DNA of 64,000 nt from Ferrovibrio sp. (GTDB lineage: Bacteria; Pseudomonadota; Alphaproteobacteria; Ferrovibrionales; Ferrovibrionaceae). Below the pieces are notes generated by a model. The model ran no database searches. It was not told the origin of the DNA and saw only the letters and a list, made by a program, of their open reading frames with translations. Where the stretch lies: contig NZ_JAOZVR010000016.1 of the NCBI RefSeq assembly GCF_025869515.1, positions 1 to 64,000 of the forward strand, read 5' to 3'. A program made the position numbers and the translations under genes. This document shows, piece by piece, positions 45,620 to 56,093 of this stretch (position 1 is its first letter; the number at the start of each line of letters is the position of its first letter).

Positions 45620-46591
45620 CTAGTCGTCGCCCGCGCCACGCGCGGTAACGTCCTTGACCCACAGACTGTGATGCTCGCGCGCCCAGTTCACGTCGACCTG
45701 GCCGCTGCCCATCGCATCGAAAGCGCCCTCCATGCCGATGCTGCCGATATAGATATGGGCGAGGATCACCGCCACCATCAGGATGCCGGCAATGGCGTGG
45801 ACCAGCTGCGCCAGCTGCATGCCGGCGATATCGGTGACGTAGAAAGGAAACATCAGCATATAGCCGCTGACTGCCAAGGCGGCGGCACCCAGCACAACCA
45901 GCCAGAAGATGATCTTCTGGCCACCGTTGAACTTGCCGGCCGGCGGATGCACACCTTTCTGCAGCAGCCCGCCACCCTGGCGAAACCACTCCATGTCGAT
46001 GGCATTGAAGATGTTGTGGCGAATCCACAGCACCGCCATCAGCAGCACGCCCAGCACGAAGGGGAAGCTGAGGAAGTTATGCGCCAGCTTGCCGAAGGCG
46101 GTGAGCCCAGTGAAAGCCTCCGGACCCATCACAGGCAGCAGCAGACTGCGGCCGAACGAGATGTTGAGGCCGCTCAGCCCCAGGATGACGAAGCAGATCG
46201 CTGTCAGCCAGTGAGCAAAGCGTTCGATGCCCTTGAAGCGTTCGATGGTGCGGCCCGACATGCCATGCTCGATCTTGATACGGCCGCGGATCGCCAGGAA
46301 AGCGGCAAGCGCCACCACGGTGAGCACCAGCAGCCAGCCGCCGGCCGATTTGACCGGACCTTCCAGCGTCTGGCGCCAGTCGCGACCCTGCGGCTGGATC
46401 AGCACGCCTGACTTGGCATCGGGAATCGAAACACGACCGGTGACGGGCCCGCCCTTGAGCTGCAGCAACAGCGCAGCCTCGTCGGCCGGGGCCTGCTGCT
46501 GGGCCGAAGCCGGCGCAACGGAACCGAGGCTGAGCATGATACCAAAGGCGAGCGCAGCCCAGATCGTGCGCTTGATGTTGAAAAGGCGCAT
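45620..46591 (-). CDS. fdhC: Formate dehydrogenase gamma subunit (cytochrome b)
   Basis: 323-residue membrane subunit that takes electrons from FdhB to quinone. A signal peptide (~1-30) and a periplasmic stretch precede an extra membrane helix (~85-105), then four b-type helices. Heme-ligand candidates are His in FAHWLTAICFVILGLSG, HNFLSFPFVLGV, and HAIAGILMVAVILAHIYIG. The track ORF extends too far; ATG 46591 starts the signal peptide. Last gene of the fdhA-fdhB-fdhC set. Confidence 0.93.
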   Translation of the reverse strand: MRLFNIKRTIWAALAFGIMLSLGSVAPASAQQQAPADEAALLLQLKGGPVTGRVSIPDAKSGVLIQPQGRDWRQTLEGPVKSAGGWLLVLTVVALAAFLAIRGRIKIEHGMSGRTIERFKGIERFAHWLTAICFVILGLSGLNISFGRSLLLPVMGPEAFTGLTAFGKLAHNFLSFPFVLGVLLMAVLWIRHNIFNAIDMEWFRQGGGLLQKGVHPPAGKFNGGQKIIFWLVVLGAAALAVSGYMLMFPFYVTDIAGMQLAQLVHAIAGILMVAVILAHIYIGSIGMEGAFDAMGSGQVDVNWAREHHSLWVKDVTARGAGDD

Positions 46592-46614: not shown

Positions 46615-47211
46615 TCAGGCCGCGGTGCCGGACTTGTAGGCCGTCGCCCAGCCCCAGGCACCGGAGCCATAGCCACGACGGCTGACGCGCTCCTTGTAAA
46701 TCTGGGCGATCACATCGCCGTCGCCGGCGAGCAGTGCCTTGGTCGAGCACATCTCGGCGCAGAGCGGCAGCTTGCCTTCGGCCAGACGGTTGGCGCCGTA
46801 TTTGGCATATTCTTCCTTGGTGTTGTCGGCTTCCGGACCGCCGGCGCAGAAAGTGCACTTGTCCATCTTGCCGCGGCTGCCGAAGTTGCCGACCTGCGGA
46901 TACTGCGGCGCGCCGAACGGGCAGGCGTAGAAGCAGTAGCCGCAGCCGATGCACAGGTCCTTGGAATGCAGGACCACGCCTTCATCGGTCTTGTAGAAGC
47001 AGTCGACCGGGCAGACGGCCATGCAGGGTGCATCTTCGCAATGCATGCAGGCCATCGAGATGGAGCGTTCGCCCTTGGCGCCGTCATTCAGCGTGACGAC
47101 GCGGCGGCGATTGATGCCCCACGGCACTTCATTTTCGTTCTTGCAGGCGGTGACGCAGGCGTTGCATTCGATGCAGCGCTCGGAGTCGCAGAGGAATTTC
47201 ATGCGGGCCAT
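46615..47211 (-). CDS. fdhB: Formate dehydrogenase beta subunit (4Fe-4S)
   Basis: 198-residue ferredoxin-like subunit with four Cys clusters: CIECNACVTACKNEN, CMHCEDAPCMAVCPVDC, CIGCGYCFYACPFGAP and the CTFC...CAEMC pair. It passes electrons from the Mo site to the cytochrome b. It lacks the C-terminal membrane helix seen in E. coli FdnH. Translated from ATG 47211 and 23 bases after fdhA. Confidence 0.95.
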   Translation of the reverse strand: MARMKFLCDSERCIECNACVTACKNENEVPWGINRRRVVTLNDGAKGERSISMACMHCEDAPCMAVCPVDCFYKTDEGVVLHSKDLCIGCGYCFYACPFGAPQYPQVGNFGSRGKMDKCTFCAGGPEADNTKEEYAKYGANRLAEGKLPLCAEMCSTKALLAGDGDVIAQIYKERVSRRGYGSGAWGWATAYKSGTAA

Positions 47212-47234: not shown

Positions 47235-50135
47235 TCAGGCCGCTTCGATGCGGCAGAGCGTGGCCTTGTTCTCATGCATATGGGTGACCGGGTCGTAGCC
47301 GTAGGTGGTCACGCCGTTGACCGATTCACCGAGCACGATTGGATCGGCGCCCGGCGGATAGTTCTTGCGCTGGTCCACACCCTGCCAGAAGCCGGAGAAG
47401 TGGAACGGCATGAAGGCAACGCCTTTGCCGACGCGCGGCGTCACCATGGCTTTGACCCTGGCCTTGGCGTTGTTTTCCGGACCGTAGACCCAGACATTCT
47501 GGCCTTCCTTGATGCCAAGGCGGGCCGCGTCTTCCGGGTTGATCTCGACGAACATGTTCTGCTGCAACTCGGCCAGCCACTTGTTCGACCGGGTTTCTTC
47601 GCCACCGCCCTCGTATTCCACGAGACGACCGGAGGTGAGGATGATCGGGAAATCCTTGCTGACATCCTTGTCCTGGATGCTCTTGCCCAGATGCGGCAGA
47701 CGATAATCGCGGCGGTCGGCCATCGCCGGATACTTGGCGACAAGGTCGCGCCGCGAGGTATAGATCGGCTCGCGATGCACCGGGATCGGATCGGGCAGAC
47801 CGAAGGCATTGGCGCGCGCCTTGGCATTACCCATCGCCTGCACGCCATGCGCCATGGTGACGCGAATGATGCCGCAGCTCAGGTCGATCGCCCAGCCGAC
47901 CGCATCCGGATTGTTGCCGCCGATCTTCTCGATCGTGGCGCGTTCCGCGTCGGTCAGCTCCTTGTCCCAGCCCATCTTCTTGAGCAGGCCATAGGTGAAC
48001 TCGGGGTGGCCGTCCTGGATTTCCGAACCCAGCGGGTAGGACCCATCGGCCAGCAGCGACACGCCATTGCGCTCGACACCGAAACGGGCGCGGAAGGCGC
48101 CGCCGCCGTCTTTCACCGGCAGGTTGGTATTGTAAAGCACATGGGTGCCCGGATGTTTCATCTCCGGCGTGCCCCAACAGGGCCACGGCAGACCATAGAA
48201 TTCGCCCTTGAGCGGGCCCTTGGTGGCGCGCAGCGACACGATGTCGAAGTCGCCCTGGTTCGCCATATGCTCCTTCAGGCGCTCCGGCGACTGGCCGGAA
48301 TAGCCGATCGAGATGGTGCCCTTGTTGATCTCGCGCAGGATGTCTTCGACGTTCGGTTCGTCGCCCTCGTCGATCTTGATGTTCTTGAACAGCTCCTGCT
48401 CGAAACCGAGCTTCTTGGCCAGCTTGTACAGAATCCAGTGATCGGGCTTCGATTCGAAGACCGGCTTGACGATCTGTTCGCCCCACTGCAGCGAGCGATT
48501 CGAGGCGGTGCGTGAGCCGCGCGTCTCAAGCTGGGTGCAGGCCGGCAGCAGGTAGGTGCCGTTCTTGCGGTCCGGCAGGGCCGCGGCTGTGGTCGGATGC
48601 GGGTCGACCACGACCATCAGCTCGACCTTTTCCATGCCGGTGCGCATCTCGGGCATGCGCGGCACGGTGTTACCGCCATGGCCCCAGAAGAACATCGCCT
48701 TCACGTTGTCGGGCTGCTCCAAGTCCTTCTTGTCGATCATGACAGCATCGAACCAGCGGGTCGACGGGATGCCCTTGGTCTCCATGAACTTCTTGTCCTG
48801 GAAGCGGCTGAGCACCCAATTGTAGTCGACATCCCAGACGCGCGACCAATGCTTCCAGGCGCCTTCGACCAGGCCGTAATAGGCCGGCAGACTGGTGACG
48901 TCCAGGCCAAGATCCGTACAACCCTGAACATTGCAATGGCCGCGGAAGATGTTGGCACCGCCGCCTTCCACGCCGATGTTGCCGAGCGCGAGCTGCAGGA
49001 TCGACAGCGCACGCACGTTGGCGGTGCCGACGGTATGCTGCGTCACGCCCATGCACCAGATCAGGGTGCCGGGCTTGTTCTTTGCCATCAGCTCGGCGAC
49101 GCGCTTCATCTGCTCGCCGGGAACGCCGGTGACCTTCTCGGTCTCCTCCGGAGTCCACTTGGCGACTTCGGCGCGGATATCATCCATGCCGTAGACGCGC
49201 TGGCGGATGTATTCCTTGTCCTCCCAGCCGTTCTGGAAGATGTGCCAGAGCAGGCCCCAGATCACCGGGATATCGGTTCCGGGACGGATGCGCATGTATT
49301 CGGTGGCGTGCGCGGCCGTGCGCGTGAAGCGCGGATCGATCACCACCATCGGCGCGCGATTCTTTTCCTTGCCGCGCAGCACATGCTGCAGCGACACCGG
49401 ATGCGCCTCGGCGGGGTTGCCGCCCATGATCACGATGCATTTCGAATTGTGAATGTCGTTATACGAATTGGTCATCGCGCCGTAGCCCCAGGTATTGGCT
49501 ACGCCGGCGACAGTGGTCGAATGGCAGATACGCGCCTGGTGGTCGATATTGTTGGTGCCCCAGAAGGCGGCGAATTTGCGGAACAGGTAGCCGCCTTCGT
49601 TGGAGAATTTGGCCGAGCCGAGCCAGTAGGCCGATTCCGGACCGGACTTCTGGCGGATTTCCAGCAGCTTGTCGCCGATCTCGTTGATCGCGGTATCCCA
49701 GCTGATGCGGGTCCATTTCCCGTCGACCAGCTTCATCGGATATTTAAGGCGACGGTCGCCATGGGTGAGTTCGCGGATCGAGGCGCCCTTGGCGCAATGG
49801 GTGCCGAGATTGATCGGGCTGTCCCAGGTCGGTTCCTGCCCGACCCAGACACCGTTCTCGACTTCGGCGGTCACGGTGCAGCCGACCGAGCAATGGGTGC
49901 AGATATTCTTCTTCTTGACGAGATTGGCGCTCGATGAGGGCGCTGCTTTGGCAGTCTTGACCATTGCCGGCGTCAGCGCCGAAATGGCAGCCAGACCACC
50001 AGCAGCAAGACCCGAAGCCTTCAGAAAGCCACGGCGATCCATTGTCTGCAGGGCGGCGCCGGCCAGGATGCCGGACAGTTTGCCGCCGGCCTTCTGAGGC
50101 GCGGCGCCAGTGGTAGAGCTTTTCTTGATCAACAT
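47235..50135 (-). CDS. fdhA: Formate dehydrogenase alpha subunit (Mo-bisMGD, Cys form)
   Basis: 966-residue catalytic subunit oxidising formate to CO2. TAT signal DRRGFLKASG (RR at 34-35) follows a ~30-residue extension. A 4Fe-4S site is formed by C79, C82, C86 and C114. The Mo ligand is Cys 204 in RICHSTT, where E. coli FdnG has selenocysteine; thus no SECIS is required. MGD-binding segments include MGGNPAEAHPVSLQH, VIDPRFTRTAAHA and FFWGHGGNT. Exported folded with FdhB. Preceded by the small TAT gene. Confidence 0.96.
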   Translation of the reverse strand: MLIKKSSTTGAAPQKAGGKLSGILAGAALQTMDRRGFLKASGLAAGGLAAISALTPAMVKTAKAAPSSSANLVKKKNICTHCSVGCTVTAEVENGVWVGQEPTWDSPINLGTHCAKGASIRELTHGDRRLKYPMKLVDGKWTRISWDTAINEIGDKLLEIRQKSGPESAYWLGSAKFSNEGGYLFRKFAAFWGTNNIDHQARICHSTTVAGVANTWGYGAMTNSYNDIHNSKCIVIMGGNPAEAHPVSLQHVLRGKEKNRAPMVVIDPRFTRTAAHATEYMRIRPGTDIPVIWGLLWHIFQNGWEDKEYIRQRVYGMDDIRAEVAKWTPEETEKVTGVPGEQMKRVAELMAKNKPGTLIWCMGVTQHTVGTANVRALSILQLALGNIGVEGGGANIFRGHCNVQGCTDLGLDVTSLPAYYGLVEGAWKHWSRVWDVDYNWVLSRFQDKKFMETKGIPSTRWFDAVMIDKKDLEQPDNVKAMFFWGHGGNTVPRMPEMRTGMEKVELMVVVDPHPTTAAALPDRKNGTYLLPACTQLETRGSRTASNRSLQWGEQIVKPVFESKPDHWILYKLAKKLGFEQELFKNIKIDEGDEPNVEDILREINKGTISIGYSGQSPERLKEHMANQGDFDIVSLRATKGPLKGEFYGLPWPCWGTPEMKHPGTHVLYNTNLPVKDGGGAFRARFGVERNGVSLLADGSYPLGSEIQDGHPEFTYGLLKKMGWDKELTDAERATIEKIGGNNPDAVGWAIDLSCGIIRVTMAHGVQAMGNAKARANAFGLPDPIPVHREPIYTSRRDLVAKYPAMADRRDYRLPHLGKSIQDKDVSKDFPIILTSGRLVEYEGGGEETRSNKWLAELQQNMFVEINPEDAARLGIKEGQNVWVYGPENNAKARVKAMVTPRVGKGVAFMPFHFSGFWQGVDQRKNYPPGADPIVLGESVNGVTTYGYDPVTHMHENKATLCRIEAA

Positions 50136-50196: not shown

Positions 50197-50409
50197 TCAG
50201 AGCCGGTTGCTGTCGTAATAGCGCTTCACGTGCTCGGTTTCCTTGTAGCGCTGCTTCTTGCGGGTCTCGGCATTCTCGGCAGCCTCGGCGCTGGTCGGCG
50301 CAACGACAACGCCGGCCACGGCAGCCGCGGCAGCGCCCACGCCTGCGGTGCGCAGGAAACTGCGACGATCGAGGGCATCTTTCTTCTCAGCGGATTTGTC
50401 TTTGCTCAT
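50197..50409 (-). CDS. Small TAT-signal protein of FDH loci
   Basis: 70-residue protein: charged N-terminus, TAT motif DRRSFLRTAG, hydrophobic Ala/Val stretch (~23-44), and a charged tail with KKQRYKETEHVKRYYDSNRL. ATG 50409 has GGAGGGAC upstream; the track start is too early. The family (formate dehydrogenase region TAT target) is known by position beside FDH genes. Its job is unknown; it may be an assembly or stability factor. It precedes fdhA by 61 bases. Confidence 0.88.
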   Translation of the reverse strand: MSKDKSAEKKDALDRRSFLRTAGVGAAAAAVAGVVVAPTSAEAAENAETRKKQRYKETEHVKRYYDSNRL

Positions 50410-50443
50410 GGCGGGTCCCTCCGTACGCGTGTGTGCCGGCCGC

Positions 50444-51253
50444 TCAGGCGGCCATGGCAAAGGCCTGATTTTCGATGGTGACGAACAACCGGCCGGCTGT
50501 GCCGAGCGGTCGATAGAGTTTCGCGCTGGGCGCCAGTTCGAGATCGGTGAAGAACCGCTCGCCCCAGGGCGCCAAATGCTGGCGGAACAGGCGTTCCTGC
50601 GTCGCCAGCTCGGCCGGACCGCGGCCTTCGCCGCCGCGGATCAGCAGGGCCATCAATTCGCACAGCGCGCCCATATGGTCCTCGGGTTCGGCGACATGAT
50701 CGGCCCGGGCATAACCCAGCTTCTCCATGTCGCCGCGCAGCTTGGCGAGCGGGCGTTCGTACAGAAAGCCGGTGCGGTAGAAAGAGGCATAGGGCACCAG
50801 TTCGCCGCGCGGCAGCCCGATGAACAGCGTGTCGTATTCGTCCTGGGCGCGTTCCAGCGAGGTGGTGCGGGCCGCTTCGGCCAGACTGGCGAGCGCCTGA
50901 CCCATTGGGCTGCTGTCGCCCCTGAGCTGGGCCAGCGCGGTCAGCAGCGCAGTATCGGGACGGCGCGCCAGGCCGCGGCCGAGCAATGCGTAAATCTGGG
51001 CGCGCCAGAGGTCTTCCTCGGCAATCGCCGGCAACGCATCGGGCGCCTGGGCGTCGGGATAGAGGTCGGGGCGCAGAGCGTGGCGCGTCACCTGGCCGCC
51101 GGTGGCGGTCTCGATGGCCAGGACATACTCGCCCGGCACCCGCTCGGCCTTGTTCAGCCAGTGCCAGACATTGGCCTGCTTCACGCCGAGCAGCCGGGCC
51201 AGTTGCGTCTGGCCCCCTACAATTTCAATCGCGTTCGAGAGTGCGCTGGTCAC
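50444..51253 (-). CDS. HTH (YdaS/Cro-like)-TorD chaperone fusion
   Basis: 269 residues in two domains. Residues ~1-65 form a Cro/YdaS-type HTH (IEIVGGQTQLARLLGVKQANVWHWL, then a LRPDLYP end). Residues ~75-265 form a TorD/DmsD-type redox chaperone (IYALLGRGLA, EYDTLFIGLPRGELVPYASFYRTGFLYERPL, EPEDHMGALCELMALLI). TorD proteins bind TAT signal and cofactor-free Mo enzymes; with DNA binding it could sense unassembled FdhA and regulate the operon. A palindrome sits 27 bases upstream of the start. Domain fusion is visible directly; the regulatory idea is inference. Confidence 0.9.
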   Translation of the reverse strand: MTSALSNAIEIVGGQTQLARLLGVKQANVWHWLNKAERVPGEYVLAIETATGGQVTRHALRPDLYPDAQAPDALPAIAEEDLWRAQIYALLGRGLARRPDTALLTALAQLRGDSSPMGQALASLAEAARTTSLERAQDEYDTLFIGLPRGELVPYASFYRTGFLYERPLAKLRGDMEKLGYARADHVAEPEDHMGALCELMALLIRGGEGRGPAELATQERLFRQHLAPWGERFFTDLELAPSAKLYRPLGTAGRLFVTIENQAFAMAA

Positions 51254-51279
51254 GAATCCCTTCCTGCCGGCGTTAACTT

Positions 51280-51293
51280 ACAAACTGATTTGT
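51280..51293. promoter_or_regulatory. Palindrome upstream of the HTH-TorD gene
   Basis: ACAAA-CTGA-TTTGT, a perfect 5-bp inverted repeat with a 4-base spacer, 27 bases upstream of the HTH-TorD start. Size and position suit an autoregulatory operator of a Cro-like dimer. Confidence 0.5.
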
Positions 51294-51360
51294 CGGGCGC
51301 CAATCAAAATCGGCATAACCTGCTGATATTTCAGGGTTTTTGCTGCACCTGCGAAATTTT

Positions 51361-51400
51361 GAGAGCGATTCTTATTCGCAGTTTATAAGGATTTTAAACT
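51361..51400. other. Fur-box-like sequence and inverted repeat upstream of the antiporter
   Basis: GAGAGCGATTCTTATTCGC (51361-51379) matches 11 of 19 positions of the classical Fur box by my alignment. Directly after it AGTTTA (51380-51385) and TAAACT (51395-51400) form a perfect 6-bp inverted repeat. Either may be a control site in this 240-base divergent region. Weak evidence. Confidence 0.3.
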
Positions 51401-54902: not shown

Positions 54903-55371
54903 CGGGGGTGATCTCCCAGATCCTGGTATGCGGCTTGTCGCCCGGCGGCGGCACGATGCGGAACTGCTCGCGGATCGCATCGCCCTCGATGAAGCGGCTC
55001 AACGACAGCAGCGTGTTGATCGGGTGCTCGCAGAGCGAGGCTGTATAATCGATCTCTTCCCTGGCCGCAGCCTTCGCCGTGGCAAAGTCCGGCGCACCGT
55101 AATCCTGCTGCAGATGCCGCGCCAGCACCTCGATCACCGCGTCATACTCGTCGCGTTCGATGGTCGCCACCGTCACCAGAGTGGACCAGCCGAAACTCTC
55201 GAGGCCGAGAAAACCGTTGGCGAAAGCCTGGCGTTCCTGCCGGCTGAGCGTCTCCGGATCGGCATCGGCAAAGGCGAAGGTGCCCGGCACCGCCCATTCG
55301 CCGGGATCGGCGGCTTCGGGGAAAACACGCGTGTCGGACTCATCGAACCGGATGGTGCGCAGCAGTTTCAT
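54895..55371 (-). CDS. DUF6505 protein of the FDH cluster
   Basis: 158 residues beginning [30 protein letters not shown], a DUF6505-type N-terminus. Mixed alpha/beta, no signal or catalytic motif visible. ATG 55371 overlaps the upstream ligase-like stop (ATGA); the track ORF runs too far. Another FDH-linked gene of unknown role. Confidence 0.82.
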   Translation of the reverse strand: MKLLRTIRFDESDTRVFPEAADPGEWAVPGTFAFADADPETLSRQERQAFANGFLGLESFGWSTLVTVATIERDEYDAVIEVLARHLQQDYGAPDFATAKAAAREEIDYTASLCEHPINTLLSLSRFIEGDAIREQFRIVPPPGDKPHTRIWEITPDV

Positions 55372-56093
55372 GACACGGCCTTCACGATCTCGGGCAACTG
55401 CCAGCTCGGCTGACGCAGACGGTCGCGCAGGGCATAAACCGTCTTGCCCGCGCCGGCCTCCAGCCAGGCATCGCCATTGGCTTCGATCTTCAGAGTCTTG
55501 TCGTCCAGATCGTGCAGCACCGCGCGACGCACCGGTTCGAAGCCTTCTTCCTGCCAGCGGTCGAGCCAATGCAGCAGATGGCGGGCAAAAGCCTCCACCA
55601 GCTGCGGCACGCTCACCTCGCCGCAACCTTCCTCATGCAGGTCGGTATAGTCCAGTTCGGTGCCCGGCATATCGTCGTCGCGGTCTGCCGCCATCTGCAC
55701 GGTGATGCCCAGCACCAGCCAGTCGGGCACATCAATCATGCCCTCTTTCTCGACCAGCGGACCGTGCTCCAGCCGGATGCCGCCGACGCAGGCGGCATTC
55801 ACCAGCAGGCGATCCGGCCAGCCGATGCCGGCCGGCGTCTCCGCCGGCGCCACGGCGGCCAGGCCGTCATGCAGGCCGAGCAGGCCGACATAGGCGAGCG
55901 TCAGCGCCGGCTGGATCGGATCGAGCGGGCGCAGCACCAGCGCCGCCTCGCAGCGATCCTGACGGTCGACCATCAGCATGAAGCCATCCTCGGCGCCATC
56001 CCGCGCCGCCTGACAGGCCGTGTCGAAGGCATCGGCAACACAGAGCTTCAATATGTAACCCGGCGGCAGGTCGGGCCATTCATCCGGCGTCAT
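55368..56093 (-). CDS. Degenerate biotin/lipoate ligase-like protein of the FDH cluster
   Basis: 241 residues, related to BPL/LplA ligases. [18 protein letters not shown] aligns with the BirA segment WPNDLYLQDRKLAGILVE, but the catalytic Lys is replaced by Cys (AACVGG). The GRGRxGR substrate loop is not visible. The C-terminal part ([17 protein letters not shown] and an SH3-like [15 protein letters not shown]) is preserved. So ligase chemistry is probably lost. It overlaps mobA (4 bases) and DUF6505 (4 bases). May bind a cofactor or FDH precursor. Confidence 0.8.

Follow-up and report, generated by a model that had tools for sequence, protein, structure and literature searches.

The formate dehydrogenase locus

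The window (the whole stretch of 64,000 nucleotides analysed here) carries on its minus strand a same-strand run of genes that starts with an HTH-TorD fusion gene (50444..51253; 269 aa, GTG start at 51253 and stop at 50444) and continues with fdhX, fdhA, fdhB and fdhC. The fdhX gene (50197..50412, minus strand) encodes a small Tat-signal protein matching TIGR02811, 'formate dehydrogenase region TAT target' (60.7 bits; cut-off 48.45), and it stands between the fusion and fdhA, which the first-pass annotation had called adjacent. The catalytic subunit gene fdhA (47235..50135, minus strand) matches PF00384, PF01568 and PF04879 and scores under the cut-off of TIGR01591, and its product begins with a twin-arginine signal containing DRRGFLK. 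It is followed by fdhB for the FDH3 beta subunit (46615..47211, minus strand; NF038355, 340.5 bits against a cut-off of 240) and by fdhC for the cytochrome b gamma subunit (45620..46591, minus strand, start estimated; TIGR01583, 163.9 bits against a cut-off of 115.85).

On the far side of the fusion lie genes for DUF3306 and DUF3305 proteins, a biotin/lipoate-ligase-like gene, mobA and fdhD, and in the window genome a divergent Na+/H+ exchanger gene separates the fusion from the DUF3306/DUF3305 side. The biotin/lipoate-ligase-like protein (55368-56093) is a conserved member of the fdh cluster. Among the neighbourhoods examined, the core order DUF3305-DUF3306-TorD-FdhA-FdhB-FdhC is common to several alphaproteobacterial families, and the cluster conserved across lineages reads FdhD/MobA, DUF3305-DUF3306 and then HTH-TorD-FdhX-FdhABC. 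An annotated Bradyrhizobium plasmid has the same cluster order, with the fusion labelled 'molecular chaperone TorD family protein'. With fdhA in the same operon, the TorD part is genetically linked to an enzyme of the Mo/W-bisPGD type that bears a twin-arginine signal.

A Cro-type HTH joined to a TorD-type chaperone

The N-terminal YdaS/Cro-type HTH of the fusion (residues 6-67; 51053..51238, minus strand) matches the Pfam profile PF15943 (YdaS; E = 7.8e-25, 86.9 bits against a cut-off of 30), and the TorD/NarJ-type chaperone domain has its PF02613 (Nitrate_red_del/TorD) core at residues 113-235 (50549..50917, minus strand; E = 5.1e-30, 104.7 bits against 22.2). Both profiles match the same 269-aa reading frame, and the earlier proposal of an HTH and a redox-enzyme chaperone in one protein is thus borne out. 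The recognition region of the HTH reads VKQANVWHW, and the domain is strongly conserved in alignments within the genus. In the chaperone domain, an E-P-E-D-H motif (residues 189-193; 50675..50689, minus strand) is invariant in the alignment; motifs of the E-P-x-D-H type are diagnostic of TorD/NarJ/DmsD proteins.

By sequence (phmmer), the solved structure nearest to the N-terminal part is Xfaso1 Cro (3bd1), and the C-terminal part is nearest to DmsD. Residues 1-60 of the AlphaFold model form a helical Cro fold (block pLDDT about 71-89), and the N-terminus superposes on 3bd1 in Foldseek with TM 0.89-0.93 by target and rmsd 0.6-0.8 Å. The C-terminal part resembles YcdY/NarJ/TorD structures, in a low-confidence portion of the model; residues 145-210 are poorly modelled on a shallow alignment, and we therefore take no reading of the packing between HTH and TorD from it.

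Several narrower identities were considered and set aside. The fusion is neither E. coli TorD proper (NF003442, 42.1 bits, below the equivalog cut-off of 132) nor E. coli DmsD proper (NF008632, 34.9 bits, below the equivalog cut-off of 162). A YdaS-YdaT pair of the phage or supposed toxin-antitoxin kind was rejected, as the neighbours are formate dehydrogenase and cofactor genes; no prophage genes were seen around the fusion.

The YdaS protein of prophage CP-933P, a Cro analogue, binds operators and represses promoters, acting on its own promoter region (PMC8630535), and this supports DNA binding by the YdaS domain of the fusion. The YdaS/Cro proteins of lambdoid prophages share with it the DNA-binding domain family and the action on palindromes in their own promoter region; however, they are small stand-alone phage proteins, whereas the window has the domain joined to a redox-enzyme chaperone and encoded in a metabolic operon.

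The palindrome in the window and in related genomes

A putative class A operator, the palindrome ACAAACTGATTTGT, was located by a window scan and by cross-species conservation at 51280..51293, 26 bp upstream of the start codon of the fusion. The perfect ACAAA-N4-TTTGT palindrome that the first-pass annotation had described upstream of the fusion's own start is therefore present, and it is the only match in the window, where 0.02 are expected. The whole 4.89-Mb genome holds two matches, the second one inside coding sequence. This genome is placed in the genus Ferrovibrio or very close to it, its relatives at 71-90% identity bearing that name. Fusion-bearing genomes of the Ferrovibrio family have one to five class A sites genome-wide, while two near-complete genomes of the genus Ferrovibrio without the fusion have none anywhere in the genome. 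Nine other ACAAA-N4-TTTGT sites inspected in related genomes lie mostly in coding sequence or in long terminator-like inverted repeats, and for this reason we dropped the idea of a regulon beyond the fusion's own promoter and claim no second target. A long inverted repeat, GGCTTTTCGCTACAAAAAAATTTGTAGCGAAAAGCC, is found between divergent tupB-like and fdhD genes in two genomes (L098 and L099, position 1501; G005 and G006) and holds the ACAAA-N4-TTTGT core.

A second conserved and partly palindromic element, similar to TGCGAAATTTTG...GAGAGTCGC, occupies 51350-51380, roughly 100 bp ahead of the fusion start. The same element is found in Ferrovibrio-family promoters (L002-L010), as GCTTGC-N8-GCAAGC in L004, and it appears to be a binding site for a different regulator.

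Two operator classes follow two HTH sub-types

The first-pass annotation had proposed a comparison of palindromes upstream of homologous fusions, and there the site is kept, with fixed arms and a changing spacer; the lack of conservation that it had named as refuting its idea is not observed. ACAAA-N4-TTTGT lies near the start of all 17 fusions with a VWHW-type HTH, exactly in 12 and with one mismatch in five; in the first set, 9 of 11 were exact against a shuffle mean of 0.007. Within the Ferrovibrio family the palindrome holds a near-constant upstream place (8/10 fusions exact, 2/10 with one mismatch). The central bases vary by species (TCAG, AACA, TGAA, CAAG, AGAA and AGCG, read on the minus strand) around the fixed arms. 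The class A recognition region also occurs, as Q..VWHW or Q..IWHW, in the family f128, whose class A fusions (L024 and L113-L118) all (7/7) have the palindrome close to the start and no more than one mismatch in it. Four of these (L024, L114, L115 and L118) bear a second, exact copy 217-226 bp farther upstream, and these paired sites, in one f128 genus, are a possible looping arrangement.

Other alphaproteobacterial fusions have a second HTH sub-type (class B), in which a four-residue loop is missing and the recognition region reads QPSVS.W or near. Upstream of 42 of these 44 fusions we found another palindrome, ATAG-N7-CTAT. The first set accounts for 12 of 13 (shuffle mean 0.009), its thirteenth member, L053, having the variant GATAA-N7-TTATC.

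Palindrome type tracks HTH sub-type, and TorD orthologues without an HTH have neither palindrome (0/33 in the first set and 0/39 in all, in the 250 bases upstream of the point where the match begins; a site could escape notice if the gene in fact starts farther upstream). We then held the patterns fixed and added further genomes and three named plasmids. In this held-out set, class B sites were exact in 30/31 fusions, with one mismatch in the remaining one, class A sites were within one mismatch in 6/6, and orthologues without an HTH had a palindrome in 0/6; many of these loci are relatives of first-set loci and hence not fully independent, and among them spacers differ and arms stay. Inside f128 the A site is found in L113-L118, the B site in L119, L120 and L122, and no site in L121, L123, L124 and L126. 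The operator class thus matches the HTH class locus by locus, loci without an HTH having no site, a match that seems not easily obtained from shared ancestry alone. At the level of sequence, the comparison shows that the presence and type of the HTH go with the presence and type of the operator at the fusion's own promoter.

These distributions bear on two other accounts of the locus. Promoter palindromes are commonly targeted by global regulators, and the palindrome might be the site of a protein such as an FNR/CRP-type factor, with the HTH acting elsewhere or not at all. We regard this as very improbable, since the palindromes occur only where the HTH is present (0/39 otherwise) and their type follows the HTH sub-type even within a family, while the few class A sites of each fusion-bearing Ferrovibrio-family genome (one to five), where inspected beyond the fusion promoter, are mostly at terminator-like hairpins or in coding sequence. 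Alternatively, the protein might be an ordinary chaperone whose N-terminal HTH is a remnant or has a structural role, as the many TorD orthologues that occupy the same cluster position without an HTH could suggest; this account is hardly credible, given that the domain shows strong conservation across the genus, is modelled with the full Cro fold and comes with an operator.

Operator position and the sign of regulation

In the window the operator lies between two putative promoter elements on the minus strand, a -35 TTGGCG (51298..51303), which fits the consensus and whose TTG column is conserved in the promoter alignment, and a -10 TAAGTT (51275..51280), placed 17 bp from the -35. This promoter was not found by a strict sigma-70 scan, and its placement rests on the cross-species alignment. 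Likewise, a TTG-type -35 and a TANNNT -10 can be placed at 17 bp spacing on either side of the operator in the majority of Ferrovibrio-family class A promoters. The operator centre in this family is about -19, counted from estimated starts and with -10 elements that are weak fits; in L003, L004 and most f128 loci the automatic fit picked other hexamers. Class B operators are centred at about -17.5 in several families, again from estimated starts, and in most loci of f171 (the Bradyrhizobium family) near -43 or -53 on the same basis, either right at a clear TTGACC -35 or a few bases upstream of it.

An operator between the hexamers is a repressor arrangement. Repression is expected in the window because the operator fills the -35/-10 spacer, and we hold it to be probable for this genome. 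The f171 arrangement is compatible with repression or with activation of the lambda CI type, lambda CI at OR2 being centred at about -43. Repression is perhaps not universal, because the f171 operator positions are also used by activators.

Positive autoregulation, or a CI-like dual action in which the protein sits beside the -35 and recruits RNA polymerase, would suit the many f171 operators centred at about -43 or roughly one helical turn higher, near -53. As an account of the fusions it nevertheless appears unlikely, because the operators of the window, of most close relatives and of L042, L059, L119, L120 and L122 have their centres at about -19 or -17.5, in the gap between -35 and -10, where binding should block.

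The TorD tree and alternative N-terminal domains

A phylogeny built on the TorD domain places the class B fusions together with support, in a group to which TorDs without an HTH also belong, so that losses or separate gains have taken place. The f128 class A fusion joins a clade without the YdaS domain instead of Ferrovibrio, a placement that is not firm (94/58).

Further domains are found ahead of the same chaperone. In L080 (9628-10425) an XRE-type HTH (HTH_3, 2.9e-7) precedes the TorD domain in the same cluster position, and a palindrome TGCATCG-N4-CGATGCA directly follows a TTGACG; this comes from a single genome, and the palindrome alone is not significant. In L081 and L082 (G104 and G384, two species of one genus) an IS1595 zinc-ribbon with a clear profile match stands in frame ahead of TorD. 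The extension has non-ATG starts, 46% protein identity and a weak third-codon-position excess, and it is possibly a real fusion, which would be the third DNA-binding one. L092 (G573) has a second TorD copy whose N-terminus carries DUF3306, which is usually encoded by the neighbouring gene. The very long frames upstream of beta- and gammaproteobacterial TorD genes (L087-L091) were discarded, since they look like shadow frames of GC-rich neighbours.

A possible link between transcription and enzyme assembly

We consider it very likely that the fusion is an operon-specific autoregulator acting through the class A operator. The Cro/YdaS-type HTH would bind ACAAA-N4-TTTGT in the promoter of HTH-TorD, fdhX, fdhA, fdhB and fdhC, presumably as a dimer because the site is two-fold, and control would extend over the whole fdh operon, as suggested by the same-strand genes and their short gaps. 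Occupancy of the operator between -35 and -10 would block RNA polymerase, and the operon of this genome would thereby be self-limited.

The chaperone half may add a signal. Binding to the Tat signal peptide of the client is reported for members of the TorD family (PMC8428690, PMC3316669). The TorD domain would accordingly bind still-unassembled FdhA by its signal peptide; DNA binding would change as the domain is occupied or alters its oligomeric state, with transcription tracking the load of FdhA that awaits cofactor and export. Were the free chaperone to repress, client load would lift the block; were it the loaded form, the operon would be shut by a backlog in assembly. This coupling is plausible from TorD-family biology and gene order, and we give an even chance to the view that FdhA occupancy of the TorD domain changes DNA binding so that transcription follows FdhA load.

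A simpler scheme is homeostatic autorepression, in which HTH-TorD holds its own level constant, chaperone occupancy is irrelevant to DNA binding and the fusion merely ensures joint production of repressor and chaperone. All of the operator sequence evidence is equally expected under this scheme. However, it leaves unexplained why a repressor domain sits on a client-binding chaperone, and the XRE-type HTH on the TorD of another lineage (L080) hints that the joining of DNA-binding and chaperone domains is favoured; we see it as a serious contender, though on the less probable side.

Several known systems resemble the proposed coupling of DNA binding to assembly. BirA, the biotin ligase-repressor, combines a maturation role with an HTH: it detects client that is still unmodified and regulates an operon. 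It differs in being an enzyme with a small-molecule corepressor that controls cofactor synthesis, whereas the proposed signal for the fusion is a chaperone client from the same operon. In type III secretion, chaperone coactivators (SicA-InvF) change transcription with the client-bound or free state of the chaperone, but there the chaperone and the transcription factor are separate proteins, unlike in HTH-TorD. The E. coli tor operon receives feedback from an immature subunit of its molybdoenzyme system, apo-TorC, through TorS. Binding of apo-TorC to the TorS sensor domain has been measured (PMC11727998). In that case a two-component sensor reads the immature cytochrome in the periplasm, while in the fusion the chaperone and the DNA-binding protein would be one cytoplasmic polypeptide.

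TorD-family proteins encoded with formate dehydrogenase operons have been described before. Among NarJ-family proteins, one diversity study distinguishes a TorD clade associated with fdh operons; its text, as searched here, makes no mention of DNA-binding, a helix-turn-helix, a fusion or transcription (PMC4464133). FdhM, a Campylobacter TorD homologue, is required for formate dehydrogenase biogenesis according to a review of molybdoenzyme maturation, whose text is likewise free of the terms helix-turn-helix, fused, repression or regulation (PMC10609526). As searched here, the papers on TorD_fdh and FdhM name neither a DNA-binding domain nor a role in transcription, while the protein in the window has a Cro-type HTH and a putative operator. 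Among open-access papers we found no published description of an HTH-TorD fusion, of its operators or of REMP autoregulation.

Implications

The records annotate only a 'molecular chaperone TorD family protein', and the regulatory half is invisible there. Descriptions of redox-enzyme maturation chaperones treat them purely as assembly factors, and the comparative evidence would make one of them also a regulator of its client operon. Because the chaperone carries a DNA-binding head and matching sites lie in the switch of its own gene cluster, we propose that one and the same protein in many bacteria of soil and water probably contributes to building formate dehydrogenase and sets its amount. 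More tentatively, at a little under even confidence, we suggest a widespread family of single-protein assembly sensors, in which fdh transcription reads the assembly backlog directly and the same chaperone is joined to two or more HTH sub-types that have two operator codes. Further unrelated DNA-binding domains, the XRE domain and the IS1595 zinc-ribbon, have possibly been placed on this chaperone as well. The two operator codes, paired with two types of recognition region, form a ready set for the study of Cro-like specificity change. Bradyrhizobium-type and related Alphaproteobacteria gain a predicted local regulator of formate oxidation, and a single protein with a single short DNA site now suffices to test whether the assembly state of a molybdo- or tungsto-enzyme is sensed directly.
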